From an uncultured Pseudomonadota bacterium (GTDB lineage: Bacteria; Pseudomonadota; Gammaproteobacteria; Burkholderiales; Rhodocyclaceae): a stretch of DNA of 64,000 nucleotides. The notes below the pieces were generated by a model that had not been told where the DNA came from, did no database searches, and worked only from the letters and a program-made list of their open reading frames with translations. The stretch spans positions 62,001-126,000 of the forward strand of contig CAJBDJ010000066.1 in the NCBI GenBank assembly GCA_903951825.1. The letters are read 5' to 3'. Position 1 is the stretch's first letter. The number at the start of each line of letters is the position of its first letter. The translations under genes were made by a program, and so were the position numbers. Positions 509-64,000 of this stretch are shown here, one piece after another.

Positions 509-2581
509 ATGACAAAAACTTCACCCAATACGCCGGTAGTCTGCTTTGAGGGGAGTCCTTACCGACTTCATCAGCCATTTTTGCCGGCGGGCGATCAGCC
601 GGAGGCCATCCGACAACTGGTTGAGGGGATTGATGATGGCTTGTCGTTTCAGACCTTGTTGGGTGTGACCGGCTCCGGCAAAACCTATACCATGGCCAAC
701 GTGATTGCCCGCACCGGCCGTCCGGCGTTGATACTGGCGCCGAACAAGACCCTGGCCGCGCAGTTGTACTCGGAATTTCGGGAGTTTTTTCCGGAAAATG
801 CGGTCGAGTATTTCGTCTCTTATTACGACTATTACCAGCCTGAAGCTTACGTCCCGTCGCGTGACCTGTTCATCGAAAAGGACAGTTCGATCAACGACCA
901 TATCGAACAGATGCGACTGTCTGCCACCAAAAGCCTGATTGAGCGGCGTGACGTGGTGATTGTGGCCACTGTTTCTTGTATTTACGGCATTGGTGATCGT
1001 GACGAATATCACAACATGATCCTGACTATGCGCGTCGGCGACTGTTTGGATCAACGAACGATCGTCAAACGGCTCATCGAGATGCAATATGAGCGCAACG
1101 ATATCGATTTCCATCGCGGCACCTTTCGCGTTCGCGGTGACGTAATTGATATATTCCCGGCGGAGCATGCTGAACATGCCATTCGCGTTTCATTGTTTGA
1201 CGACGAGGTTGAAGGACTGCAGTTTTTTGACCCGCTCACCGGACACCTGTTGCAAAAAGCCCTGCGTTTCACCGTTTTCCCTGCCTCGCACTACGTCACG
1301 CCGCGCGACACGGTGGTCAGGGCTATTGAGGCAATCAAGACTGAACTTCGCGAACGTATCGACCACTTCAACGCCCATAACAAATTGGTCGAGGCGCAGC
1401 GGATTGAGCAAAGAACACGTTTTGATCTTGAATTGCTGGATCAGATCGGTTTTTGCAAAGGCATCGAAAATTACTCGCGGCATTTTTCCGGACGTCAAGC
1501 CGGCGAACCGCCGCCGACCCTGATCGATTACCTGGCTACCGATGCGCTCATGTTCATTGATGAATCCCATGTGACGATTGGTCAGGTGGGGGGGATGTAC
1601 AAAGGTGACCGCTCACGCAAGGAAAATCTAGTTGATTACGGCTTTCGCCTGCCGTCGGCGCTCGACAACCGACCGCTACAGTTCAACGAATTCGAGGCCT
1701 TGATGCGGCAAACCATTTTTGTCTCGGCAACACCGGCGGACTACGAAAACACCCACGCTGGTCAAGTAGTCGAACAACTGGTCAGACCCACCGGCCTCGT
1801 TGACCCCGAAGTGCTTGTCAAGCCGGCATCGACCCAGGTTGATGATTTGCTATCCCAGATAAAAATACGAGTTGAGCTTGGCGAGCGGGTGCTCGTCACG
1901 ACACTGACCAAGCGCATGTCGGAAGACTTGACGGATTTCCTGGCAGATAACGGGATTCGCGTACGCTACCTGCATTCGGACATTGATACGGTGGAGCGGG
2001 TCGAAATCATCCGCGATTTAAGACTGGGTGAATTTGACGTTCTGGTCGGCATCAATTTGTTGCGCGAAGGATTGGATATCCCCGAAGTTTCCCTCGTCGC
2101 CATTCTTGACGCCGACAAGGAAGGTTTTTTGCGTTCGGAACGCTCCCTGATCCAGACCATGGGGCGCGCCGCCCGCCACCTCCACGGCACGGCAATTCTC
2201 TATGCTGATAAAATCACGCAGTCGATGCAGCGCGCCATGGCTGAAACCGAGCGCCGGCGCGAAAAACAAACCGGCTTCAATGCCGAAAACGGCATTACGC
2301 CGCGTGGGGTGTCGAAGCGGATCAAAGACATTATCGATGGTGTCTATGACACTGAGTCAGTGCAAACTGAACTCAAAGCGGCACAGCAACAAGCGGTTTA
2401 TGAAGCAATGGACGAGAAGTCGGTCGCAAAGGAAATCAAGCGGCTGGAGAAGCAAATGCTGGAATGTGCTAAAAATCTGGAATTCGAAAAGGCGGCAGCG
2501 GCCCGCGATGACTTGTTCAGGTTGAAGGAACGGGTTTTCGGTGCGGCATCACATGACCGGGAGGGAGACAATACACCATGA
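509..2581 (+). CDS. uvrB: Excinuclease ABC subunit B (UvrB)
   Basis: UvrB is the damage-verification helicase of nucleotide excision repair. It is loaded by UvrA and then recruits UvrC. The 690-residue length is normal. Visible parts are Walker A GVTGSGKT at 52-59, the [12 protein letters not shown] beta-hairpin that clamps DNA, the DEAD-like box DESH at 351-354, helicase motif [11 protein letters not shown], and a C-terminal UVR motif ([18 protein letters not shown], then the [11 protein letters not shown] segment) that contacts UvrC. The stop overlaps the ATG of the phosphatase gene (ATGA), implying coupling. No CTGT-N8-ACAG LexA box is evident in the short upstream gap, so SOS control is not supported by the sequence. 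Confidence 0.99.
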
Positions 2582-3075
2582 GCTATCGTATCCTTTTAGT
2601 CTGTATGGGCAATATTTGCCGATCGCCAACTGCTGAAGGCGTACTCAAGGCGTTTATTGAGCGCAATCAACTGAGCGATCTCGTGGAAATCGACTCTGCC
2701 GGCACGCATGGCTACCATGTCGGTGAAGCACCCGACGGTCGAACTCAACGCGCTGCCGCCGTCCGGGGCTTTGATTTGTCTCAATTGCGCGCCCGCAAAG
2801 TTGCACGTCAGGATCTTGATTACTTTGATCTGATTCTGGCAATGGACAAAACCAACCTGGATAACCTGCAACGAATCGCTTCGCCCGACCAGAAAAACAA
2901 GCTGAAGCTCTTCATGGGCTATTCGAAAAACTACGATGACGATGAAGTGCCTGACCCCTACTACGGCCTTGGGTATGGCTTTGATCTGGTTCTCGACATG
3001 GTTGAAGATGCCTCGCAAGGCTTGATTGACGATTTGAAATCCAGATTGAAGCGAACTGCCAATGAGGGGTTGTAA
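2578..3075 (+). CDS. Low-molecular-weight protein-tyrosine phosphatase
   Basis: A cytoplasmic phosphatase of the LMW-PTP family, 165 residues. The P-loop [14 protein letters not shown] gives catalytic Cys9 and Arg15, and the general-acid loop DPYYG has Asp126. The family dephosphorylates phosphotyrosine on bacterial tyrosine kinases or host proteins. In many proteobacteria it sits with exopolysaccharide genes, but here it is coupled to uvrB by an ATGA overlap and no kinase is nearby, so the substrate is unknown. It is the last core gene before the accessory island. Confidence 0.95.
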
Positions 3076-3292
3076 GCCTGAACCGCCGAATTTTCCGTCG
3101 CTGTTTGTCAGGTTGGAGCGCTGCAGCGAATGCGTCTCGAAATTCTCGGGGGATAGCTTGCCCATTCTTCGGCGGTGATGCAGACGGTCATCAAGCGCCT
3201 CCGGTCAGGCGCTTGCGAGCGTCAAATGCCCGACCGGCTCGGCCGCCGGCCGCACCTTGATCTCGACCGACACGGGAAACAAGTGTTTCCGG
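3076..3292. other. Gap at the left border of the island, possible gene remnants
   Basis: No complete gene is supported here. On the minus strand a short reading frame ending near 3208 reads FPVSVEIKVRPAAEPVG and so on, and is followed directly by a second frame starting MTVCITAEEW. Both look coding in style but are very short and unassigned; they may be ends of genes lost when the island formed. The eight-base arms CCGCCGAA (about 3082) and TTCGGCGG (about 3167) are inverted but about 85 bases apart, and no T-run follows, so no terminator is called. Confidence 0.3.
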
Positions 3293-3619
3293 TCACTTGG
3301 CGATGCCCAAGAACACGGCCAAGCAACGCTCTACCTCCACCAGTGCATCCGCGTCGATGCGTCCGAAGGCTGGCCCTACCTTGTTGCGCTTCACCGTCAT
3401 CGCCTTGTCCACCATGACTTGTGAGGGCTTTTGCATGCCGTTCTCGGCAGCCGGCTGAATTGTGACGCGCAACAATGGTGCGGAAACAAGCGTGCTGGTG
3501 ATGGGTAGAACCGTTGCGCTCGCGTGCTCGCTGAACTGATTGGCTTGAATTACCAAGGCGGGGCGCGGTTTGCCGAAGTCGCCTTGCATGGCGATGGTCA
3601 CAAGATCGCCGCGCGTCAT
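3293..3619 (-). CDS. MazF/PemK family endoribonuclease toxin
   Basis: A 108-residue type II toxin. It begins MTRGDLVTIAMQGDFGKPRPALVIQ, the typical SH3-like MazF start with the conserved RGD and KPRPALV segments, then PLLRVTIQPAAENG and KPSQVMVDKAMTVKRNKVG, ending AFGRIDADALVEVERCLAVFLGI. MazF enzymes cut single-stranded mRNA at short sites and stop growth until neutralised. The start overlaps the stop of the upstream antitoxin gene (ATGA), the usual antitoxin-first order. No truncation is seen, so the module may be functional. Confidence 0.9.
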   Translation of the reverse strand: MTRGDLVTIAMQGDFGKPRPALVIQANQFSEHASATVLPITSTLVSAPLLRVTIQPAAENGMQKPSQVMVDKAMTVKRNKVGPAFGRIDADALVEVERCLAVFLGIAK

Positions 3620-3840
3620 TCCGTCCAGCCGTCCACATCTGCCAATGCTTCATCCATGAACTGCTGCATGGCCGTATCGGCGCGATCAGCCTGGGCCACG
3701 AGCAGGCATTGACGGCGGCATTCCTCCGCGAAGTCCGGGCGGCGTGTATCCGGTACCCAGATTTGTACCAGGCGAAGTCCTGCCATGCGCAGCGCGTCGC
3801 GGTGCTTTTGAACGCGTGCGTTAACGTGTGTGCTTCCCAT
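3616..3840 (-). CDS. DUF3018-type antitoxin (MazE-like partner)
   Basis: A 74-residue protein that resembles the DUF3018 antitoxin family commonly found in front of MazF genes. It starts MGSTHVNARVQKHRDALRMAGLR, a basic DNA-binding-like N-terminus, followed by LVQIWVPDTRRPDF and a charged C-terminal tail that would wrap the toxin. The ATG at 3840 has a GGGG Shine-Dalgarno motif five bases upstream. It is the first gene of the pair and has a promoter with repeated 11-base elements just upstream, which fits autorepression by the complex. Confidence 0.82.
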   Translation of the reverse strand: MGSTHVNARVQKHRDALRMAGLRLVQIWVPDTRRPDFAEECRRQCLLVAQADRADTAMQQFMDEALADVDGWTE

Positions 3841-3855
3841 ATGAGCCCCTGTAAA

Positions 3856-3896
3856 GTTACATGCAACACTATGCGCGACAACTACGTTACATGCAA
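3856..3896. repeat. Two 11-base direct repeats, candidate operator
   Basis: GTTACATGCAA occurs exactly at 3856-3866 and again at 3886-3896, a 30-base period or about three helical turns. One copy forms the -35 side of the putative promoter and the other lies between the -10 and the antitoxin start. This is the arrangement expected of an operator bound cooperatively by an antitoxin complex. Binding is inferred, not shown. Confidence 0.55.
3868..3896 (-). promoter_or_regulatory. Putative promoter of the MazEF-like module
   Basis: On the minus strand TTGCAT (3896-3891) and CATAGT (3873-3868) are separated by 17 bases, a plausible sigma-70 promoter about 28 bases before the antitoxin start. Only four bases match in each hexamer, so the call depends mainly on position and spacing. 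Confidence 0.45.
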
Positions 3897-3924
3897 TAGT
3901 GGCGGAATTTTCTGGGGCTCCGGC

Positions 3925-4040
3925 TTAGAACCCCAAGCAATGGAAGACAAACACCGCTGTCGCAAACTTGACCGTGTAGACCGTCTGCTACGTGGCGCCG
4001 GCATCGTTTTCGACGACCTCCAGCATGTAGGGGGGGGGGG
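3925..4040 (-). pseudogene. Remnant of a HigB/RelE-like (phage Gp49-like, DUF891) toxin
   Basis: Read on the minus strand, 4026-3925 gives MLEVVENDAGAT, a TAG stop, then QTVYTVKFATAVFVFHCLGF and a stop. This is the central signature of the phage-derived Gp49-like toxin family (LEVVE-D-G-TYRAVYTVKFA--VFVLHCFQKK). The normal arginine codon region holds the stop, the C-terminal QKKSKRGIATPKPD part is missing, and an 11-base G run (4030-4040) interrupts the upstream side. About one third of the gene remains and no antitoxin partner is visible. It is clearly dead. Confidence 0.72.
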
Positions 4041-4127
4041 CGTGGACAGAGTGCGTCGTCCTGACGACACCGGTCACCTATCGCTAAATGATGAAAAACC
4101 AGTCTTTAGCGACATGACAAATGCCCC

Positions 4128-4156
4128 TTGTGGCGATGCATTCACAACACTAAAAT
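4128..4156 (+). promoter_or_regulatory. Putative promoter of the FitAB/VapBC-like module
   Basis: TTGTGG (4128-4133) and TAAAAT (4151-4156) are spaced by 17 bases, about 35 bases before the antitoxin ATG. The -10 matches five of six bases; the -35 matches only the conserved TTG. Confidence 0.45.
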
Positions 4157-4160
4157 GACT

Positions 4161-4181
4161 TCATTGAATACAATTCCATGA
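4161..4181. promoter_or_regulatory. Palindromic candidate operator of the FitAB/VapBC-like module
   Basis: Arms TCATTGAAT and ATTCCATGA flank a central ACA and match at eight of nine positions. The site lies just after the -10 element and overlaps the ribosome-binding region of the antitoxin. Ribbon-helix-helix antitoxins of the FitA type bind inverted repeats in their own promoter, so this is the likely autoregulatory site. Confidence 0.55.
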
Positions 4182-4190
4182 GGTGATGTT

Positions 4191-4445
4191 ATGGCAATGC
4201 TGACAGTACGCAATTTACCCGACGAAGTACATCGCGCCCTACGGATTCGCGCTGCGCAACACGGGCAAAGCACCGAGGCCGAAGTCCGCGAGATTCTGGC
4301 GATTGCAGTCAAGCCAGAGACGCGCGTTCGCCTGGGCGAAGCCTTGGTGGCGTTGGGTCGCAAGATCGGCCTGACGAACGGGGATTTCGAGGTCTTCGTC
4401 CAGGTGCGAGACAAGACGCCAGCCGAGCCGCTGAGGTTTGAATGA
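4191..4445 (+). CDS. FitA-like ribbon-helix-helix antitoxin
   Basis: An 84-residue antitoxin. MAMLTVRNLPDEVHRALRIRAA is a standard Arc/FitA ribbon-helix-helix: a short strand (LTVRNLP), then HRALRIRAAQHGQSTEAEVREIL. The rest is the toxin-binding tail. The complex would bind its own promoter through the ribbon. AGGTG precedes the ATG. The stop overlaps the toxin ATG, which couples translation and keeps the antitoxin in excess. Confidence 0.9.
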   Translation: MAMLTVRNLPDEVHRALRIRAAQHGQSTEAEVREILAIAVKPETRVRLGEALVALGRKIGLTNGDFEVFVQVRDKTPAEPLRFE

Positions 4446-4858
4446 TTGTCCTCGATACCAACGTCGTTTCCGAGGCGATGAAGCCTGAGCCGCACAAGGC
4501 CGTGCGCGCCTGGCTGAACGATCAAGCCTCCGAAACGCTGTACCTGTCTAGCGTGACGCTGGCCGAGTTGCTGTTCGGCATCGCCGCACTCCCGGCAGGC
4601 AGGCGTAAGGACATGCTGGCACAGATACTTGACGGGCTGATGGGGCTGTTCAGGGATCGGGTGCTGCCATTTGACACCGATGCCGCGCGGCGCTATGCCG
4701 AGTTGGCCGTGATGGCAAAAGCCAGCGGGCGAGGATTTCCGACACCTGACGGCTACATTGCCGCGATTGCGGCCTCGCGGGGTTTCATCGTGGCCTCACG
4801 CGACACTGCACCCTATGAGGCGGTCGGCGTATCCGTCATCAACCCGTGGGAAGTGTGA
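4442..4858 (+). CDS. FitB/VapC-like PIN-domain ribonuclease toxin
   Basis: A 138-residue PIN nuclease. The acidic metal-binding residues are in place: MIVLDTNVVSE (Asp5), the TLAELLFGIAALPAGRR segment with the conserved Glu, and PTPDGYIAAIAASRGFIVASRDTAPYEAVGVSVINPWEV with the two C-terminal acids. The C-terminal motif is typical of the FitB subgroup. Such toxins cut RNA, often tRNA, with Mg2+. The protein is full length, and with the antitoxin next to it the pair is probably intact. The next reading frame starts immediately after its stop. Confidence 0.92.
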   Translation: MIVLDTNVVSEAMKPEPHKAVRAWLNDQASETLYLSSVTLAELLFGIAALPAGRRKDMLAQILDGLMGLFRDRVLPFDTDAARRYAELAVMAKASGRGFPTPDGYIAAIAASRGFIVASRDTAPYEAVGVSVINPWEV

Positions 4859-7800
4859 GTGATGTATAAAAATTGCGAACTCAGTATCCGTGGGGCGTCT
4901 CAAGGTCGAATAGCTTGGTGTGGCTGTGGCACCCAACTCTTGCGAATTCACCGCGCCCCACTCACGCGCCTGGTTGCCGGCCAGTTTGCCCAATTACAGG
5001 CAACGGCCGACTGGGCCGACGCGCAGGGGGTGGCGATTACCGACGACGGGCGCGGCGGGCGCACCCCGTTCAACCTCACCGCCACCCAGGACAGCAATCG
5101 CTACCTGGTCGCCAACATCAACAGCACCGACCGTGGGCTGTCGACCCTGGTGCTGACACGCGATGCCAACGGCCGGGTGACCGACGCCCGGATGACGGCG
5201 ATCCCGATGAATCAGCCCGACAGCGCCATCCGCATCGACCGCCTCAACATCCAGCGCACCCAGAGCGCCGTCCTCGTCACCGTCGACGGGGTCGAGTACG
5301 CGATCGTCGGCGACGACGCGATTGCCTACAACGACGCCTATTACCGGGCGATGTACGAAGCGCCGATGTTCGTCTTCACCTCGCCCTTTGCGCCGCCCAC
5401 CGCCGTCGGCGGCAGCGCCAGCGCCAAGAAGGTCAATGTCGGTGGCAAGCTGGGCATCGTCAAAGACCCCTTCGGCCAAGCCGAATACCTCGGCGCCACC
5501 TTGCCGCTCGACGGCTACGGGATCATCAACCTGGCGCTCTCGGAAGACGGCTCGGTGCTGATCGGCCAGCTCAAGGGCGGCTACAGCGGCAACATGAACT
5601 CGCCCAACTACTTCATTCAACTCCCCAACCAGGTGCACGCCTGGGACGTCGGCGCCCTGATCGCCGCCGCCCTCGCGCAAGCCCCGCAGACGCGTCTCTC
5701 CCAGCACATCCGCCTGCCGGAGGGCGCCGAACAACTGATCTCGCCGCGCTCCGATAACCCCAACGACATCGGCAGCGGGCGGCCGATTGGGACGTTCTTT
5801 GATCCGGATCCGGTGGCCATCGACATGGTCGTGCGGATGGGCGACGTGATTGAAATCGATACCCGCAGCGACGACTTCAAGCGCCTGATTGCGCATTCCT
5901 TGCTCAAACTGCCGCCGCCCGACAGTCAGTTGCCGGCCGACAAGAACGCCATTGCGGCGAAAGCGACGGAGATCGCACAATTGATGGCGGCGATTTCGGT
6001 TGCCGGACTTCCCCTGGAAAATGACGACGTCCGCAATCTCTCTCAAAACAAAGAACGCGGCATCACCCTGCTGACCAACCCAGACCACAGCCTGTTGACC
6101 CGCGACGCCAGCGGAACCAACATCGGCCGCTTCTTCGCGCTGGCCAACCTGAGCGACCAGGATCGTCGCGACGCAGATGGCAAGATCATTGAAGCCGACA
6201 TCAAAAAGCTGCGGGCCGGGCTGGCGCTGGGGGACAAATGGGGCACCGTTCGCCTCAATTACACGCTGAGCAGGCCGCTCGCCGGGCAAAAGGCGGGTGA
6301 CAATGTCGTGACCTTGAAGATCACGGCCAAAGACTACGCCAGCGTCGCCAACCCCTTCGTAGGCGACCGGCCGCTCGATAACCCGGGGTACTCCACAATC
6401 GAGTTTGTTGGAACGAAAGGCGTCGCCGACCCAGTGAACGCCGCGCGTGTCGAACAGCGGTTGAAATACCTGGGGTACGGCCTGTCGTCCATGACCCACG
6501 AAGAAATTGTGGTCGATGGAGCGATCAAACCCAATGAGCAAAAGGTACTCAGCCAGTTTGCCCAGATCGTTGCCGGTCAAACCACCTATTCTGCGAGCTA
6601 CCAATTTCCGGCCATCACCGGCGACAGCAGCAACAGCGTATTCACCTGGCTCAACGCCTACAACGCGCCGCACTGGATGGATTTCAGTTCGGCCTTGAAG
6701 GGCAAAGGCGCCCTCGCTGCCGGCTGGGTCAACCAGGTTGAGGCCGGCAAGAGCACCCAAGGCACGAGCTGGATTTACGACCTGATGGTGGCAACACAAG
6801 CCCAGACCACGGCCAACCGTCGTGTTGCCGAGGAAGCCCGGCTGCAGTTCAAGGGCGCCGGGGAATTGGGTGTCATGCTCAATCTCGGGATCAACGAGAG
6901 ATACGTCTCGAAAACCAATCAGGACAGGGTGTCCGGCAAGGATGTCGTTCTCGGCTTGACGACCGATACGCCCCCCGCCGTGATTAGCGAAGCCGGCCAG
7001 GCGGCTTACCGGAACAAGCAGTGGAATGCCGCCAATGCCCAGGCCTTGGCCGGGTTGCTGGGAAATCCGAGCCTGGACAAGGCGGCCAACCCGACGAACC
7101 AGCAAGGCGACGCGCTCAAGGATTTCCTGGCTATCTACAGCGCCATGCTCAATGACAACCAGAGCGGCAACGGGATCGGCTGGGACGATATCCAGATCGC
7201 CAGCGCCGGCGACAAGGCGAAGATCAAGGAGGCTCTGTTTGGTAAGGGAGACCCGACCAGTGGCGGGTTGATTGATGCAAAGAACATCCTGCTCGGCGGC
7301 ACGGCAGCACCGTTGGGATCAATGATGACGGCGGAGTCGTTGGCGGCGTTTATGAATCCGGACGGTAAGACCAAGGGGGTGGATTACGCCGCCTGGGTCA
7401 AGCCGTTGCAGAAGGCCATGGCTGAGTTTGGCATCAATACGCCGCAACGTATCGCGGCTTACCTGGCGCAGGTGAAGCAGGAAACAGGTGGCTTAGCAAG
7501 TATGACGGAGAGGATCGGGCCGTATCGCGTCAGAGTACTGATCGACACGTTCAGCGGAATGTTTGGCGGAAAACAACTAACGCGCGAACAGCGTTTCAGC
7601 AATCTTCAGATTTTTATGAAAGATGTACTTGGGTTGACCGTCTTGGAAGGCAAGAAATTGTCTGACCCTGGGGTTGAAGAGTACAAACCTAGTGAAGCTG
7701 TTTGGGATACGGTCAAGGACAAATTCGCCGATTACTATTTATCCGAAGACAAAGGCACTAAAGGTATTCCGAAAGGCAATGGGAAAGCTGTAGACAAGAT

Positions 7801-56056: not shown

Positions 56057-59000
56057 CTACAGCGAATTTGCAGCTATGAATACACTATCAAGTCGGTAGA
56101 ACTGCCTTGTAACCCCCTGATCAATATCTACGCTTAACGCGTCAGGCGCAGAACCATGAGTCGGCATCGACGCCATCGCCCGTATCAAATGCTCAATATC
56201 ACAATTGAAAGAGAGGTTTGGCTGGTCGAAGCTTGGGGTCACAGAGAAAACGACATGCTCAAGTTGCAGATAATCAAGATTGGCTTGAGTCGCGTTTAGG
56301 GAGATGGGCTTATGTTCGTTATCAAGCACCCGGTAGACAAACTCTTGATCAGCCTGCGAATCAGTAGCCAAAGCCCTGGAGGGCATCGTCGTAATCCTGA
56401 ATTCGCCATTATCAACTGCGCACCAATACTCAGACAGCAAACTATCCAGTAGAACGACCATCGGAGTAGTGTTGCGGTTATAAACATCATTTACTTGAGT
56501 AAAACTCTGATAACCACCAACGTGCAACAAAAGCCCTTTGCCGTAAGCATTAATAACATGAGTCCCATTACCCGTATAAGCATTAATACCTTCAACTGCC
56601 GCATCAACCCCCAACGAGACTAGATCACTCTCACCTGCCAACTTAACAGTGGCTCTGGCATGATCGTACAACATGATATTGTTTACCGAGCCCGCTGATG
56701 TTTCAATGATCGGATGAGAATTCGCCCCAAAAACGTGGATTTCATTCCGCCCCCCGCCATCGGTAGAAGATGACAAATAAACATTCTTGCTGTTGTTAAA
56801 TTTAACGGAATTTATACCCGAACCGAGAATGATATTCATGCGATCGGTAAATTCGGTGCTATTGGCGACGTTGGCAATATCGGTGATCTCAAAAACATCA
56901 CCGAAATCAGTTCCTCTAATGTTCTGGAAGTTTTTAAAAATACCCTTCTCGGAGACTGCAGATCCATTCAAGAGACTATAGTCAGAGTAGTCTGTGGGTT
57001 TCGAAATGTCGAAATGTAAACCAGATCCAGACAGATTGAACAAAATAGAGTTGTAATCAAAGCCGCCGTCAAGCTCACCACCATCAATTATAGAATCTCG
57101 CGGCGGCAAACTTTCGGGCAAGTTATCAATACCAATAGCCATATAAACCGAGTTTCCGCCATTAGCCATGGAAATTGACAAAACAGATGACTCCGCGATT
57201 ATCTGACCGAGCCCACCAGACATGATGATAGTGTCACGCCCTATCGAATGAAACGTTTGATTCGCCTTAGACCCAAAGACATAATTGTCACCTTCGCCGC
57301 CATAAACACGGCAATTTTCAAAATTATCCAGGTTTATTTGGAAATTAACACTGGTTTGAAAAACGACTGTATTGGATAACGCTGCTTTATTACCAAAAAT
57401 AAGCAAGGAAGACACCGCACCCAGATGACTTTGGGATTCGAATGCGATGTCTGAAATATATACAACATTAACACCGCGCCCGGTAATCAAGCGTCCCTGC
57501 CCCACGTGTGCAAAAATCATGAAATTATTATCAAAGGAAGCGAGGCCGACGACAAAATCAGGCGACCGACCCCAGTCCAATACAATAACAGCCCAGTCGG
57601 ATTTTGAGGTCGTACCCCATGTGGAAACACTGAAATTTAATGCCACTGGCTGCAGAGCAGTACCGAGCTGATGAACTGTATTAACGGCAGCTACATTGGA
57701 GTCTGAAAAAATGGTGTAACGGGACAAAAAATTCCGATCCAGGGAAGATCCACGCTGCATTCTCTCAGAATCGGGTTCAACCCCAAGCAATCCATCCAAC
57801 AAATCACTGGTCGTGACAAAAGACAAATAACTCAGGCTAACAAAATTTATGCCTACTTTACCCTTTAAATAACGCAACGCAGCAGACATTTCTGCCCACA
57901 CCGTAACCGTATTGCTACCTCCTGAAACTTCTTCAAAGTCAACATCCTCAGTGGGGTTAAATTTTGAGTCATTGTGAGTTTTATTTACCCCAGGTAAAAG
58001 CAAAGTCGGATCTGTGATAGCGCGATTTATCTCTTGAGTAAAATTACTCCCAACAGTGCTGTTCAATGCATTTGATGCGTTAAGTTTTCCATAATGATAT
58101 TCAGCATATTCCCTTATAAGACTCTCTTGCAATGTCGAATTATTTACTGTTTGTTGCGCAATATCATTTAATTTAGACTTATATTTACTCTCTCCAACGA
58201 TCGGGATTGCGAACCAAAAACTATTCCATCCAATATTATCTACGATTTCAGCTAATGCAGTTTGCCCATGATATCTTAGGTCATTTGCTTTGTTGCTTAA
58301 AGAAGAACCAGACATTCCCCAGCAGGTTGATTTTAGCGCGCCAGCCCCGAGAAAGAGACCCAAGGCACCATACATGGCATACTTGGCATGCCTACCTGAG
58401 CGGGACAGATAAGACAATGCATATCCAGCAAGCATTACAATTTCCGCCCCCGAGGCAGCAGCATGCTCGGTTAAATGCGTTCTAGAAGCCAATGAGAGGG
58501 TCATCGCTATAGTACTCACAGTCCCGCCCACAACACCGATTGCCCAAGAGACCGCTGTCACGTAAGCGTAGTGTTTCTTTTTGTTTGCCCTATACTCAGC
58601 CGCAGCAGGAGATTCAACTGCACCAGAAGGCAGAAATCTTAAGAACATTGGCCCGGCATCAGCGTATAAAAGCCCGGACATCGAGACCGATTGACTTATA
58701 CCGTTGAAGGCAAGAGCAAATCTTTCCACTAGAGAAAGATTGGGAGTAATCACGGCATAGACAACCTTTTTAATTCCAGATAGTATTCCCATGACGTCAG
58801 AAATTACGAACATCATACCGGGGGGCGCTTCACGTGTATTCCAGCCTCGAGCGGTATTTATAGCGTCATTAATATCGCTCGCCGATGCTAGGGAGCTTAC
58901 CGAAATATAACTAAGTATTGAGGCCGGCGTGGGCGGTGTATACGGCAAGGGCGGCGCGTCCGGCAGGTCAGTAAAATGATTTCTAGCAGATGCTAGGTAT

Positions 59001-62000
59001 AATGCCGTATCGCCATTAAACGCCGCCCCCGCCTGTTCTATATTACTTAACTCAATTGGTCCACCAACCAAATCAACCAAATCAACCGGCGGTGTAGGTG
59101 GAATAACAGGAATTTGCCGATTATTTATTGAGTTCAAAAGAATCCTAAATAGCGCAATACCAGCAAATGTTGATTGATAAGCTCTAAATGGGCCGCACAT
59201 CCTGAATGTCAAAGCCGTTAACAGACTCATTATTTTTGCTTTTTTATCGTACATATCATAAACATCCACCGCTGTGCCAAACACCCAGTTTGAAGGCACT
59301 TGTAGCGCCGAAGCGCTGTATTCAAATGCATCAAATTGCCGTGTGGGATCATTATCTCTCCAGGCAGCCTCTATTGCAGGAATTGCGAATACGGACCCCA
59401 AGCCTCTAACCCATTGAAGTTTGTGCAGATAAGAATCAAGCGCTGCACCCGTAATTATTTCTGTGTTAAGGTAGCGATAGTAATTAGTCAAAATTGACCT
59501 AAGGGGTGTTACACCGATATATAGCGCACGGGCACCAACGATTGTATAAGCAGGTCGCGAGGCAATGATCGTTGATAACTCTTCATTTACACCAAACCAC
59601 GAACTCACGCTACGCGTAAGGTTACCAAAACCACTCGCATTAACCATATTTTCAGGTTGCGTGCTGTATGCCATAGCTGCATTATGGTAGTCAGTTTTAA
59701 TTCTTGAAAAAGCTTCCTTGTTAATATAACCCTGCTGTATATAACTTAAACTTAAGAAAGATGCAGGAGAAATCTTGGCAAGTTGTTCATAAGTCAGCGC
59801 TTGCAAATCTTCTTTACGCATAGACTTGAATGACATCGGGTTCAAATATCGAAAAGTCTGTGGCAATATCCTTGTAACCGTGTAGCTACTGAGTGAATCA
59901 TATCCTCGTGTCTCGAGAACATAAAAAAACGGCAATTTCCTGAGTGAACTTCTTTGATCAACGCTTAAGCTATTGAATTGCGCTGGGGTGAGATTTTCAC
60001 ATTGAGTATCTGTCAAATATTGAAGGGTATCCTTCGTCAGATTTCTAAATATTTCAGGGTTTAGATTAATAAAATTATCGATTAACATCGATTGTAGTCT
60101 GGAGGGGTGTTTATTGAGGTACTCGGCAGTGATGTCTGAAAACCTTATCACTGTCACGTTTCCACCAGACACGCTATCTATCTCCATTAACCTTCGGTGT
60201 CCATCGAGCACAATCTGGCTATTTGTATTCCTTTCCAATAAAACGGCCAACTGACTCTCTGAAAAATATGAAAAGTCAATCGCGTTGACTTGTCCAGTTG
60301 CCAAGGTGCGCAACTGTGCTGCCGTGATTTTTGCCACTTGCTCCCGCCCTAGTTCAGAAAGAATCGCTGCGGAAAATTTAGTCCCGAATATGGATGAATC
60401 AATTGACGCAATTGCATCCGGATTCAAACTTGATAACTGGGAGTCTGTTAAAGCCGATGCAACCGTTTCCCCGGCGCTTGCCCCATGGAACGAATAGCCC
60501 ATCTGCGTCGCTGTCAGTCCGGCAGCATTGAGCTTGGCGATCTTGGCTCTTGTGAGGAGACTGAAGCTCGGCAAAAGTGAAACCTGTGGTGCGCGGATAG
60601 CCGCCAACTGGTCGTCTGACCAGGAATGTATGAAAGCAGTGTGCAACAAGGAGAACTGGTGGTTACTGAGCTGGCTGATGATGGTATCCGGTGCCAATGC
60701 TCCCTTTTGGGCGGATGTCAGGATGTCAAAAACCAGTTGGCCTGAATCATCAATATAGTCAAGCTGATCTCTGGTCAGGCGCGACCCATCGATTTTCTGT
60801 ACTTTCGCGGTGCTCAGACGGGAGAAGTCCGCCTCGCTGAGTTGTGCGACCGTGCTCGCTTTCAGCGCCGCAAAATCGTTTGCCGACAGCAGGTCAATCA
60901 CTGGCCGCTCTGTTCCCGCATCGTTAACTAAATACTGGAGCTGGAGCCAGGAGAGTTTTGACTTGAGGAGCGAGGTTATATTGGCGGTGCTGATGGCGCG
61001 GATCTGGGTTGCCGTGAGCCCATCCACGGCATCGGCGCTCAGGTTGGTAAGTAGTTTCGTTGTCAGTTGACTGGTCTGTAACAAACCGACGCTGCGTGCC
61101 GAGAGTTTGGCCATCTGAGCCGCGGTCATCGTATCGATCTCAGCCGTTGTCAGCGACTGGAGCGTCGCTGCAGGCAAGGCATTCAGCTGTGCATCAGTTA
61201 GCTGGTTGATCAACTTGTCGGCATCGATGGTGTAGCCGGAGGTGCGTTGCAACTGGAGATCGGCTGCGGAAAACCAACGGGTCTCCAAGTGATGTACTTG
61301 TGTAGAACTAAGCGCCTGCAGAAGCGTGGATGCGTTGCCAGTGGCCGGCGTGTAGGTGAGACTAAGCATGTAGCCCGTAAAACCGGCCGGATTGAGCTTG
61401 TGCAAACGTACTTTGGAAAGCTGATTTAGATGGGTAATGTTTAAAAATATCACGGTGTCTAGCGGCAAGTGCCAGAATTTGTGGTTGTTTTGATCAGTAT
61501 CACTCATGACAGCGAGGGCATCCCAAAGGGTGCCGCCGTCGCCGCTGATGGTCGATTCAATCTGCCAACGGCTCAGGCCGGCAAAGTTGAGGGCTTGCAC
61601 CTGACTAACACTCAACGCCGCTAATTGCGAATTGGCGCCGTGCGTCAGCGCGCCGACTTGCGCCGCACCGAGGCTGGCGCGTGCGGCATTGAGCGCAGCG
61701 TCGCTGAAGTTGGCCGGGGTGATCAGCTGGATCTGAGCGGGCGTCAGATTGCTCAAGACGCTATCCCCGCCTGAGTCGAGCTGGCTTAATTGGGCGACAG
61801 TCAGCGCTAGAACCGCAGCATCAGAAAGTCTTTGAATGAGGCGATCATTCGTCGCGGCGATTTGTTGTGGTGTGAGGCGAGAAACCACTGTCGAGGTCAG
61901 CGCGGCGATTTCATCACCGTTCAGTTGCCCTATCGTCGATAGCGGCAACACCCCCCATTGCGTAGCGTCACTTGTTTTGAGGTTGCTGAGAACTGAAACC

Positions 62001-64000
62001 CCATCCGAGCCCTTGTAGCGCAATTGCTCAATGCTCAACTGGCTGACATTCAAGGCTCGAATTTTCTCCTGGGTGAGCAGGGCAAACTGGCTGGCGTTTA
62101 AGCGTGCCACAACGTCGGCGGAGAGTGCGCCAAGCTGGGCGGTGTTGAGCTCTTCCAGCAGGGGACGTTTAACCGTTTTGCCATCGACCGTTTTGTCGGT
62201 ATTCGTCGTGTAGGCGAGTTGCTCGTAACCAAGGGTGGAACCCCCCATTGCATTGGCTCTGGCCGTGCTGAACGCACTGATCTGATTTGCCGTCAGCCCT
62301 TTGACCTGGGTGGAGGTGAGAGAGCCGAGCGGGAATGAAGGGTCGCTGACCACAGCGCTTGGCAACTGCGACAGTTGGTAGGCCGACAAGAAGGTGTAAA
62401 TCAGACTATTGGCTGTTTCGCCGCTTAGGCTGATTGCCTGCGAGAGGAAGTCGCTGCTTGTCGCCCCCCCCATATTGAGCCGCTGAAATTGAGCCTTGGT
62501 CAAACGATTGAGGAGCGCCGGTTGGCTTGCAATCAGACTCGCCACCGTTGCTGCCGACAAGTCGTCGAGTTGGTTAGTGCCCAGCGCTTGCCAGACGCTG
62601 GTGCCGCTGGTGGCGGTCGCGTAGTCCAATTGCGCGTAACTCAGGCCGGCAGCGTTGATTTTTTGCACGCGAGCAGGCGTCAGGTCTTGCAAGCGAGGCT
62701 GTCCCGCTGTTGTACTTGTCAAACTGGTGACCGTCGCTGCCGAAAGCTGAGACACCCAGTTGTCGGTTGCGCTCTCAAGCAGCGCATCCCAGACGGTTTT
62801 TTTGGCCCCGGAATTTCCCACTTTGAAAGTCGACGTTTCGAATATCAATTGAGCACTACCAACCCATCCGCTTGCTAACAAATTTCGGACGTCCGCAGCA
62901 GTCAGGTCATCAATTTCAGTGCCTTGCAGTTCTCCCACCGCTGTTTCCGACAAGTTGGCCAGCCAGGGCTTGTCGGAAACCCCAAGCAGCGCGTCCCAGA
63001 CGGTTTTTTTGGCACCTGCACTACCCGTGATGTATGTCGATGTATCGAACATCAACTGAGCCCTGCCTGCCCACCCGCTGGCTGACAAACTGGTTACTTC
63101 CGCGGCGGTCAGGTCATCAATCTCAGTGCCTTGCAGTTCTCCCACCGTCTGTGGCGACAAGGCGGCTAGCCAGGACTTAGAAATCCCAAGCAACTTAGTC
63201 CAGAGCGTGCTTCCCGTCGATGGGGCTGTCACAAGCTGCGCATAAGACCATCCACTTGCTGGCAGTAGCGAAAGCTGATTAGCGGACAACCCAGCGATCT
63301 GCTCGATAGTCAGCGCTGAAACCTGGGTAGGCGTAAACAAAAGGTGGGGTTGATTCTCGTCGATCAGGCTAATGAGCACTGCGTTACTCAGCGAGGCCAC
63401 CTGTGCCAGGCTCAAATTCTGCAGAACGAGCGTGCCCGGATTGTTGTTGAAGTCGGCCAACAACTGGGGCTTGGTCAGCCCGGTGGCATTGAGTGACTGC
63501 AATTGTGCGAGACTCAATCTCTTGATTTGCAGCGAACTCAAGACGTTTTGCACGAGCCAGGGACGCAACACACCGAGCTGAGCGGGGCTCAGGTGATCGA
63601 AGTGATCGCTGATCATTCCGATCCACTGGTCATCAGTCAAACCAGCCAGTGTTTCGGGCATCAGGTCATGCCGTTGCTCATCGGTGAGGCTCTCGAAGAG
63701 CGTGGCGGTTTGGGAAGCATTCAGGTAATTGAGTTGCTCATAGCTCAGACCCCTGGCGTCGAGCAGTTGAATTTGCTCAGTGGTCAGCGTGTTGATCTGC
63801 GCCTTGGTGAGGGCAGCGACCGTTGCCGGTTGCAGGTGGGCAATCTGGATGTTGCTCATCCCTCCTACAGAGAACAAGAACTGGTTGTCTGCGACGTTTC
63901 GCATGATCACCTGAACCGCCGTCAGGCCGGCGGTATTGAGTGCGGCAATCTGGAACGAGTTCAGCGCGCGAAGCTGAGCAAGAACCAAGGCACCGACCTG
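56057..64000 (-). CDS. Giant LTxxQ-repeat protein, N-terminus outside the window
   Basis: The last 2647 codons of a very large protein; the frame is still open at the right edge. Roughly the first 1380 visible residues are made of a short repeat of 8-10 residues, LTxxQ[IV]xxL (for example LTKAQINT-LTTEQIQLL), grouped into longer blocks with WxxL and GLSYEQL motifs. A 207-base unit is duplicated within it. After about 1380 the repeats stop. A region with several hydrophobic segments follows (VSWAIGVVGGTVSTIAMTLSLA, YAMYGALGLFLGAGALK), then a beta-rich tail with GGEGDNYVFGSKAN and other RTX-like but degenerate turns. The rear is more AT-rich than neighbouring genes. The repeat type occurs in giant surface proteins of unknown role; a toxin or adhesin is possible but unproven. 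Confidence 0.85.
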   Translation of the reverse strand, partial: QVGALVLAQLRALNSFQIAALNTAGLTAVQVIMRNVADNQFLFSVGGMSNIQIAHLQPATVAALTKAQINTLTTEQIQLLDARGLSYEQLNYLNASQTATLFESLTDEQRHDLMPETLAGLTDDQWIGMISDHFDHLSPAQLGVLRPWLVQNVLSSLQIKRLSLAQLQSLNATGLTKPQLLADFNNNPGTLVLQNLSLAQVASLSNAVLISLIDENQPHLLFTPTQVSALTIEQIAGLSANQLSLLPASGWSYAQLVTAPSTGSTLWTKLLGISKSWLAALSPQTVGELQGTEIDDLTAAEVTSLSASGWAGRAQLMFDTSTYITGSAGAKKTVWDALLGVSDKPWLANLSETAVGELQGTEIDDLTAADVRNLLASGWVGSAQLIFETSTFKVGNSGAKKTVWDALLESATDNWVSQLSAATVTSLTSTTAGQPRLQDLTPARVQKINAAGLSYAQLDYATATSGTSVWQALGTNQLDDLSAATVASLIASQPALLNRLTKAQFQRLNMGGATSSDFLSQAISLSGETANSLIYTFLSAYQLSQLPSAVVSDPSFPLGSLTSTQVKGLTANQISAFSTARANAMGGSTLGYEQLAYTTNTDKTVDGKTVKRPLLEELNTAQLGALSADVVARLNASQFALLTQEKIRALNVSQLSIEQLRYKGSDGVSVLSNLKTSDATQWGVLPLSTIGQLNGDEIAALTSTVVSRLTPQQIAATNDRLIQRLSDAAVLALTVAQLSQLDSGGDSVLSNLTPAQIQLITPANFSDAALNAARASLGAAQVGALTHGANSQLAALSVSQVQALNFAGLSRWQIESTISGDGGTLWDALAVMSDTDQNNHKFWHLPLDTVIFLNITHLNQLSKVRLHKLNPAGFTGYMLSLTYTPATGNASTLLQALSSTQVHHLETRWFSAADLQLQRTSGYTIDADKLINQLTDAQLNALPAATLQSLTTAEIDTMTAAQMAKLSARSVGLLQTSQLTTKLLTNLSADAVDGLTATQIRAISTANITSLLKSKLSWLQLQYLVNDAGTERPVIDLLSANDFAALKASTVAQLSEADFSRLSTAKVQKIDGSRLTRDQLDYIDDSGQLVFDILTSAQKGALAPDTIISQLSNHQFSLLHTAFIHSWSDDQLAAIRAPQVSLLPSFSLLTRAKIAKLNAAGLTATQMGYSFHGASAGETVASALTDSQLSSLNPDAIASIDSSIFGTKFSAAILSELGREQVAKITAAQLRTLATGQVNAIDFSYFSESQLAVLLERNTNSQIVLDGHRRLMEIDSVSGGNVTVIRFSDITAEYLNKHPSRLQSMLIDNFINLNPEIFRNLTKDTLQYLTDTQCENLTPAQFNSLSVDQRSSLRKLPFFYVLETRGYDSLSSYTVTRILPQTFRYLNPMSFKSMRKEDLQALTYEQLAKISPASFLSLSYIQQGYINKEAFSRIKTDYHNAAMAYSTQPENMVNASGFGNLTRSVSSWFGVNEELSTIIASRPAYTIVGARALYIGVTPLRSILTNYYRYLNTEIITGAALDSYLHKLQWVRGLGSVFAIPAIEAAWRDNDPTRQFDAFEYSASALQVPSNWVFGTAVDVYDMYDKKAKIMSLLTALTFRMCGPFRAYQSTFAGIALFRILLNSINNRQIPVIPPTPPVDLVDLVGGPIELSNIEQAGAAFNGDTALYLASARNHFTDLPDAPPLPYTPPTPASILSYISVSSLASASDINDAINTARGWNTREAPPGMMFVISDVMGILSGIKKVVYAVITPNLSLVERFALAFNGISQSVSMSGLLYADAGPMFLRFLPSGAVESPAAAEYRANKKKHYAYVTAVSWAIGVVGGTVSTIAMTLSLASRTHLTEHAAASGAEIVMLAGYALSYLSRSGRHAKYAMYGALGLFLGAGALKSTCWGMSGSSLSNKANDLRYHGQTALAEIVDNIGWNSFWFAIPIVGESKYKSKLNDIAQQTVNNSTLQESLIREYAEYHYGKLNASNALNSTVGSNFTQEINRAITDPTLLLPGVNKTHNDSKFNPTEDVDFEEVSGGSNTVTVWAEMSAALRYLKGKVGINFVSLSYLSFVTTSDLLDGLLGVEPDSERMQRGSSLDRNFLSRYTIFSDSNVAAVNTVHQLGTALQPVALNFSVSTWGTTSKSDWAVIVLDWGRSPDFVVGLASFDNNFMIFAHVGQGRLITGRGVNVVYISDIAFESQSHLGAVSSLLIFGNKAALSNTVVFQTSVNFQINLDNFENCRVYGGEGDNYVFGSKANQTFHSIGRDTIIMSGGLGQIIAESSVLSISMANGGNSVYMAIGIDNLPESLPPRDSIIDGGELDGGFDYNSILFNLSGSGLHFDISKPTDYSDYSLLNGSAVSEKGIFKNFQNIRGTDFGDVFEITDIANVANSTEFTDRMNIILGSGINSVKFNNSKNVYLSSSTDGGGRNEIHVFGANSHPIIETSAGSVNNIMLYDHARATVKLAGESDLVSLGVDAAVEGINAYTGNGTHVINAYGKGLLLHVGGYQSFTQVNDVYNRNTTPMVVLLDSLLSEYWCAVDNGEFRITTMPSRALATDSQADQEFVYRVLDNEHKPISLNATQANLDYLQLEHVVFSVTPSFDQPNLSFNCDIEHLIRAMASMPTHGSAPDALSVDIDQGVTRQFYRLDSVFIAANSL
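62741..63154 (-). repeat. Tandem 207-base duplication in the giant gene
   Basis: Two adjacent units with a 207-base (69-codon) period. The marker GTCAGGTCAT occurs at 62901 and 63108, and AGACGGTTTTTTT at 62791 and 62998. Both encode GELQGTEIDDLTAA followed by SGW and AKKTVWDALL. The copies are similar but not identical, so the duplication is not brand new. Confidence 0.85.

Follow-up and report, generated by a model that had tools for sequence, protein, structure and literature searches.

The right end of the window, by which we mean the whole 64,000-nucleotide stretch of DNA analysed here, holds the rear of a giant gene. With a probability of roughly 0.6, we read its product as a type-I-secreted surface or contact fibre, in which an alpha-solenoid stalk carries an orphan head and the last ~95 residues act as export signal. 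With flanking DNA added, the gene is an open reading frame of 5,639 amino acids on the minus strand (window-extended 72976 to 56057) that contains no internal stop. Its ATG lies at window-extended 72976 (L001:12976) with AAGGA a few bases upstream, and N letters are absent from both the window and L001. The part inside the window (56057-64000, minus strand, frame open at the right edge) corresponds to residues 2993-5639. In order, the protein consists of Ig-like domains, a stalk in which an 8-residue LTxxQ unit recurs over ~2,600 residues, a module that is hydrophobic in part (~770 residues) and a tail (~435 residues) (Table 1).

Table 1. Features of the giant gene inside the window, in window positions.
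Feature	Position	Strand	Basis
Stop codon	56057..56059	-	ORF call
Last 95 residues, sole tail part retained by the short copy on C72; putative signal for type I secretion	56060..56344	-	alignment
Tail, residues 5205-5639, beta-rich by eye; common to C8, C27 and C63, partly C14 and C72	56060..57364	-	profiles
Module, residues 4431-5204, hydrophobic in part, GC-poor and highly divergent from the two paralogues	57365..59686	-	profile, GC
Hydrophobic segment, residues 4839-4857	58406..58462	-	hydropathy
Hydrophobic segment, residues 4803-4831, with the highest peak in the window copy (1.66)	58484..58570	-	hydropathy
Hydrophobic segment, residues 4717-4743, matched in the alignment by hydrophobic segments on C27 and C63	58748..58828	-	hydropathy, alignment
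ALTTAQ-type repeat stalk, residues 2993-4430; stalk start at ~1850, past the right edge	59687..64000	-	PF20080, motif count, lag-8 period
Stalk block, residues 3040-3400, AlphaFold2 fold	62777..63859	-	28 of 34 listed helices 4-7 residues long

Ig-like front and repeat stalk

A first-pass annotation of the window had described a Leu/Gln repeat of more than 1300 residues and had proposed extending the contig to reach the start of the gene and adjacent secretion genes. The repeat was borne out, covering 1,438 amino acids (residues 2993-4430) within the window. Extension yielded an intact start and showed that the window holds the rear half of the gene only, but it revealed no neighbouring secretion genes. 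The 2,992 further N-terminal residues past the right edge comprise additional repeat and Big_13 Ig-like domains (189.6 bits, 11 stretches within residues 1-2992 in Pfam; within the first ~1850 residues by eye). The latter form the long tandem of bacterial Ig domains that is looked for in SiiE-type proteins. Other matches to residues 1-2992, namely OmpL47 (over the cut-off), MXAN_2561 and Ca_tandemer (both under), were read as the same Ig region. No N-terminal TPS (haemagglutination activity) domain of two-partner secretion or CdiA proteins was found in these residues by Pfam at E≤1.

PF20080 (ALTTAQ_rpt) scored 60.6 bits at residues 2997-4492 and 62.8 bits in residues 1-2992, the Pfam gathering score being 26.4. 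The motif L[TS]xxQ[IVLM]xxL occurred 17 times in residues 2993-4430, 17 times in residues 1850-2992 and never in the other three sections, versus a mean of 0.10 and a maximum of 2 in 500 shuffles of each of the two stalk parts. Autocorrelation of the residues L, I, V and M peaked at lag 8 in both stalk parts (0.29 and 0.31), and self-BLAST detected no long super-repeat in the stalk. The repeat is weaker than in relatives, with 60-63 bits over more than 1,400 amino acids here versus 200-295 bits over 500-600 amino acids in five of them. The earlier remark that such Leu/Gln repeats have no assigned function agrees with our findings, but the repeat itself is already named in Pfam. Although CAAP1 scored 37.7 bits against a Pfam cut-off of 25, its match coincides with the repeat and was taken as noise, as were ArsC/Spx, Sigma70 and similar matches to repeat sequence.

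AlphaFold2 predicted residues 3040-3400 to form a solenoid of very short helices (mean pLDDT 76.8), starting from an alignment of the protein's own stalk blocks that was poor, with overlapping rows. Because this block is predicted to fold as a short-helix solenoid, the inference of a long solenoid stalk drawn in the first-pass annotation holds. Armadillo repeats have units of ~42 residues, compared with 8 in the stalk. Compared with armadillo-type solenoids, the stalk model gave Z scores in the range of a possibly mere common arrangement, at 6-13% identity. If such a solenoid occurs in nature, its 8-residue unit would make an unusually small element from which to build rods.

Rear module and tail

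Within Pfam, NCBIfam and PADLOC, no family matched the module, CAAP1 (E 0.14) being found at the stalk end only. At E≤1, neither Pfam nor NCBIfam returned a family for residues 4493-5639, and at E≤10 Pfam returned none for the last 450 residues; phrog matches at E 0.01-0.07 were taken as noise. Paralogues in the same genome did recover the rear. The tail was found at E 1.1e-32 with a profile built solely from the other three large copies (0 of 200 shuffles matched), and the module at E 1.3e-4 with one built solely from two paralogues (0 of 200 shuffles at E≤10). Given these two values, no part of the window copy has diverged more than the module.

The rear also differs in base composition. Per 100 codons, GC was 0.47-0.65 over residues 1-4200 and 0.35-0.51 from residue 4201 on, while third-position GC was mostly 0.56-0.85 before residue 4201 (lowest 0.43) and 0.26-0.53 after it. 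Amino-acid composition alone is no explanation for this drop, since third positions fall too. The drop starts ~230 residues ahead of the repeat end. The first 56 kb of the window had a mean GC of 0.596 per kb (sd 0.034, minimum 0.526), and parts of the modules on contigs C27 and C63 are GC-poor as well. Composition thus makes it likely, though it does not prove, that the rear was imported into the family.

Several hydrophobic segments had been noted in the rear by the first-pass annotation. They are present in the module, but they are modest. Only two places reached a 19-residue Kyte-Doolittle mean of at least 1.5; they are centred at 4730 and 4815-4822 within the module, and the higher mean is 1.66. 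At 1.2, stretches 4717-4743, 4738-4757, 4803-4831 and 4839-4857 of the module were flagged together with 5188-5206 at its end; this threshold is unspecific, because the Ig and stalk parts hold ten such stretches too. The degenerate RTX-like turns suggested for the rear proved weakly supported: one GGxGxD-like match exists (GGEGDN at 5226), but an RTX array of GGxGxD nonapeptides was not detected, PF00353 being absent from the window protein at E≤1 and from the tail at E≤10. Profile matches to CyaA and haemolysin RTX chains among PDB sequences were not significant (E 0.37, 0.62 and 1.2).

Such a module could also belong to a toxin-like protein, contact-dependent or secreted, whose stalk reaches a neighbour and whose module inserts in the membrane, either as a pore or for passage of part of the tail. 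We consider this unlikely, even though a hydrophobic segment occupies an equivalent position in all three module copies, the peaks of the C63 and C27 modules are stronger (2.01 and 1.89, versus 1.66 in the window copy), and the module is GC-poor and far more diverged than the tail, as exchangeable effector modules are. The modest hydrophobicity of the window copy argues against a toxin, as do two of the strong C27 and C63 segments, which are unflagged where they align with the window copy; just one strong segment has counterparts in all three. Moreover, TcdA_TcdB_pore (PF12920), a profile with sub-cut-off matches in 2 of 14 control genomes, gave no match at E≤10 anywhere in the own genome, and no toxin family was found for the rear in Pfam, NCBIfam or PADLOC. 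Membrane insertion or attachment of the rear, as proposed earlier, is a guess.

More speculative still is the idea that the genome owns a private set of type-I-secreted delivery fibres, whose 8-residue-unit alpha-solenoid stalk presents an exchangeable, horizontally acquired, membrane-active module. If this rather doubtful reading were true, the position of the module between conserved stalk and export tail would allow one secretion system to serve many giants with different heads.

Paralogues and export route

All or part of the tail recurs at five further loci of the same genome, on contigs C8, C27 and C63 (large parts), C14 (183 amino acids at the contig end) and C72. The assembly is a draft of 75 contigs, and contig ends truncate the copies on C8, C14, C27 and C63. 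The window protein can be aligned with that of C27 over 1853-4795 (28%), tails align at 25-27%, and C63 and C27 share 41% identity over 2,412 columns. The front parts vary among the giants, since the C27 copy carries seven FG-GAP stretches and one RTX (PF00353) match before its stalk; it is the only copy with PF00353. On C72 lies a 1,778-aa frame that starts with MALPINPT and comprises a short ALTTAQ-like stretch and Ig-like repeats, followed directly by the last ~95 tail residues; the module is lacking. This fusion, like the truncations at contig ends, could partly be an assembly effect. The last ~95 residues align across all six loci, and each of the six tails has 0-1 Lys in its final 60 residues. 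Because the C72 copy keeps just the tail end, the alignment suggests that these ~95 residues are an uncleaved C-terminal export signal.

In six pairs among the C27, C63, C8 and C14 tails, dN/dS was 0.15-0.33; these values are only rough, because the four pairs with the window copy were saturated and dS was high in several of the other six (up to 2.4). They point to constraint on the paralogue tails.

Just upstream of the giant gene we observed a truncated paralogue head (MSLPINPT..., L001:13105-13929, minus strand, window-extended 73105-73929). It matches the C72 N-terminus at 43% over 113 columns, and similarity ends after ~113 residues. Near it lies an 89-aa frame (L001:14214-14483, minus strand) without Pfam match at E≤0.01, which we take to resemble the beginning of a transposase of the IS110 type.

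A repeat protein that is decaying or drifting and serves no present function, its giants being kept and reshuffled by recombination, would account for the truncated head, the short recombinant on C72 and the weaker repeats (60-63 versus 200-295 bits). We nevertheless regard decay as improbable, given that the 16.9-kb frame is intact, that AAGGA precedes its ATG and that dN/dS is below 0.35 in all six paralogue-tail pairs. A secreted biofilm-matrix or S-layer-like structural protein instead of a cell-contact fibre is similarly improbable: Ig-like, FG-GAP and helical repeats are present and would suit matrix proteins too, and there are several copies per genome, but the divergent rear module would better fit an interaction head than a lattice protein.

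For the surface or contact fibre, the C63 paralogue provides the link to an export route. It has the same stalk, module and tail and lies directly before an HlyB/HlyD/TolC-type operon, the next open frame following ~120 bp on. The HlyB protein scored 988 bits with TIGR01846 (cut-off 725.6), the HlyD protein 332 bits with TIGR01843 (cut-off 208.7) and the TolC-type protein 191 bits with Pfam OEP (cut-off 22), the last reaching 167 bits with TIGR01844, below the cut-off of 225. An operon is nearby at this one of the six loci; a second ABC and HlyD pair on C37 had no stalk or tail match in the 16.6 kb covered there. Around the window copy, no T1SS-type ABC, HlyD or OEP frames were found in C66:62001-156559 (window, L001 and L002). 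Contrary to the earlier suggestion of a secretion or modifying gene just past the right edge, the region upstream contains the truncated paralogue head, a FadL/TodX-type porin (PF03349), a 3-hydroxyacyl-CoA dehydrogenase and a thiolase. Type I secretion, also considered earlier, is thus supported indirectly by the operon beside the C63 paralogue on another contig, but not by genes beside the window copy.

We infer that the giant would leave the cell C-terminus first through an HlyB/HlyD/TolC-type type I secretion system acting in trans, with the last ~95 residues as signal. Outside the cell, the ALTTAQ repeats would form a rod-like alpha-solenoid, as predicted for one block, and the N-terminal Ig-like domains would lengthen the rod. 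Module and tail, exiting first, would become the distal head that meets its partner, which may be a surface, another cell or the membrane of that cell. The genome appears to keep several such giants with a common tail and stalk type and differing front domains, the module of the window copy being strongly diverged. With the operon-linked C63 paralogue and the naturally shortened C72 copy, export route and signal would be directly testable.

Similar gene neighbourhoods exist elsewhere. Among 19 regions around ALTTAQ genes in other genomes, 4 contained T1SS-type ABC and HlyD frames, versus 0 of 10 control regions, a difference that is not significant (one-sided Fisher 0.16). HlyD and ABC genes were adjacent to the ALTTAQ gene in G517 and G506 and within ~3-9 kb in G837 and G167. 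The 19 regions (28-40 kb each) were those whose stalk match lay on a contig of 50 kb or longer and 5 kb or more from its end, which left out 15 of 34 genomes. Controls came from round-number places in 10 of the same genomes, and one of the 10 contained a partial OEP match. Within the genus, ABC and HlyD were present in 3 of 9 regions (G028 C23, G031 and G032 at 2.93 Mb), with Pfam identity of the genes established in part; the G032 pair adjoins a 200-aa ALTTAQ frame only. The ABC, HlyD and OEP profiles were built from own-genus genes beside ALTTAQ genes, and therefore the count of 3 of 9 and the C63 operon contain their own sources. No ABC/HlyD pair was found in 15 of the 19 and 6 of the 9 regions, some of which are cut by contig ends. 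We regard these neighbourhoods as suggestive of type I export, not as proof.

Known systems and distribution of relatives

LapA-type RTX adhesins combine an Ig-like tandem with type I export. The window protein shares the tandem and, probably, the export route, but unlike these adhesins it carries no RTX array. For the window protein, the C72 copy and the truncated head alike, the first 300 residues showed no [TPA]AAG cleavage site. The own genome encodes a LapG-type peptidase (PF06035, 51.9 bits, over cut-off; G000:C26:108720-109052). With the ALTTAQ_rpt proteins of PF20080, the window protein shares the short LTxxQ unit and a score over the Pfam cut-off; unlike them, it begins with Ig-like domains and ends in an orphan module and tail.

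Giant adhesins that carry Ig tandems and leave by type I secretion are well known, among them SiiE (PMC6272769) and RTX adhesins (PMC7493085). SiiE, a non-RTX type I adhesin, resembles the window protein in its thousands of residues, its Ig tandem and the likely type I export, but the window protein has a ~2,600-residue alpha-solenoid after the Ig domains and its operon is not adjacent. While the repeat and giant Ig adhesins are already known, the combination of an Ig tandem, a giant alpha-solenoid and a tail family found in one genome is new. Literature searches for ALTTAQ, PF20080 and repeat strings returned only unrelated matches, as judged by title and abstract, and none was found on type I secretion with a giant alpha-solenoid.

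Matches to PF20080 were present in 6 of 60 genomes, the own genome among them and all six from one genus, and in Caulobacter vibrioides among 14 control genomes. With the stalk profile (E≤1e-10), matches were obtained in at least 18 of 398 genomes of the phylum and at least 18 of 297 of the family, own included in each; these are lower bounds, because no more than 2 candidates were scored for each genome. Giants of the ALTTAQ type, thousands of residues long, are present in at least 13 of 68 family genera (297 genomes). The tail profile, by comparison, matched only the own genome among 76 of the genus and 2 of 395 in the family when G238 is counted. The G238 match (E 9.3e-4) was rejected as a relative, its 2,995-aa frame giving none at E≤1e-5 with six profiles. 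Outside the own genome, the module profile had no match among 350 class genomes or 375 family genomes. Neither tblastn against plasmids (rear) nor PDB sequence searches found a relative. Tail and stalk scans of genome and viral contigs, with two narrow peptide patterns each, gave no confirmed relative, an absence that says little, given the narrow patterns and the possible omission of the own genome.

The frames of 18 relatives measure 1,325-5,692 amino acids. Six of them (G167, G203, G107, G379, G360 and G837) end in an acidic tail unlike that of the window protein; in the others, judged by motif density, the repeat runs nearly to the end, that of G600 lying mainly in the rear half. The acidic tails contain NxDG and LDxNxDG motifs, with EF-hand_5 below cut-off in G203 and G379, and are perhaps another export tail. 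At G030:C1:2552463-2577155, three ALTTAQ frames (2,609, 2,474 and 3,063 amino acids) stand in tandem with identical last 60 residues; they adjoin a ParA-like gene (by eye), and flagellin-like genes lie ~15 kb away.
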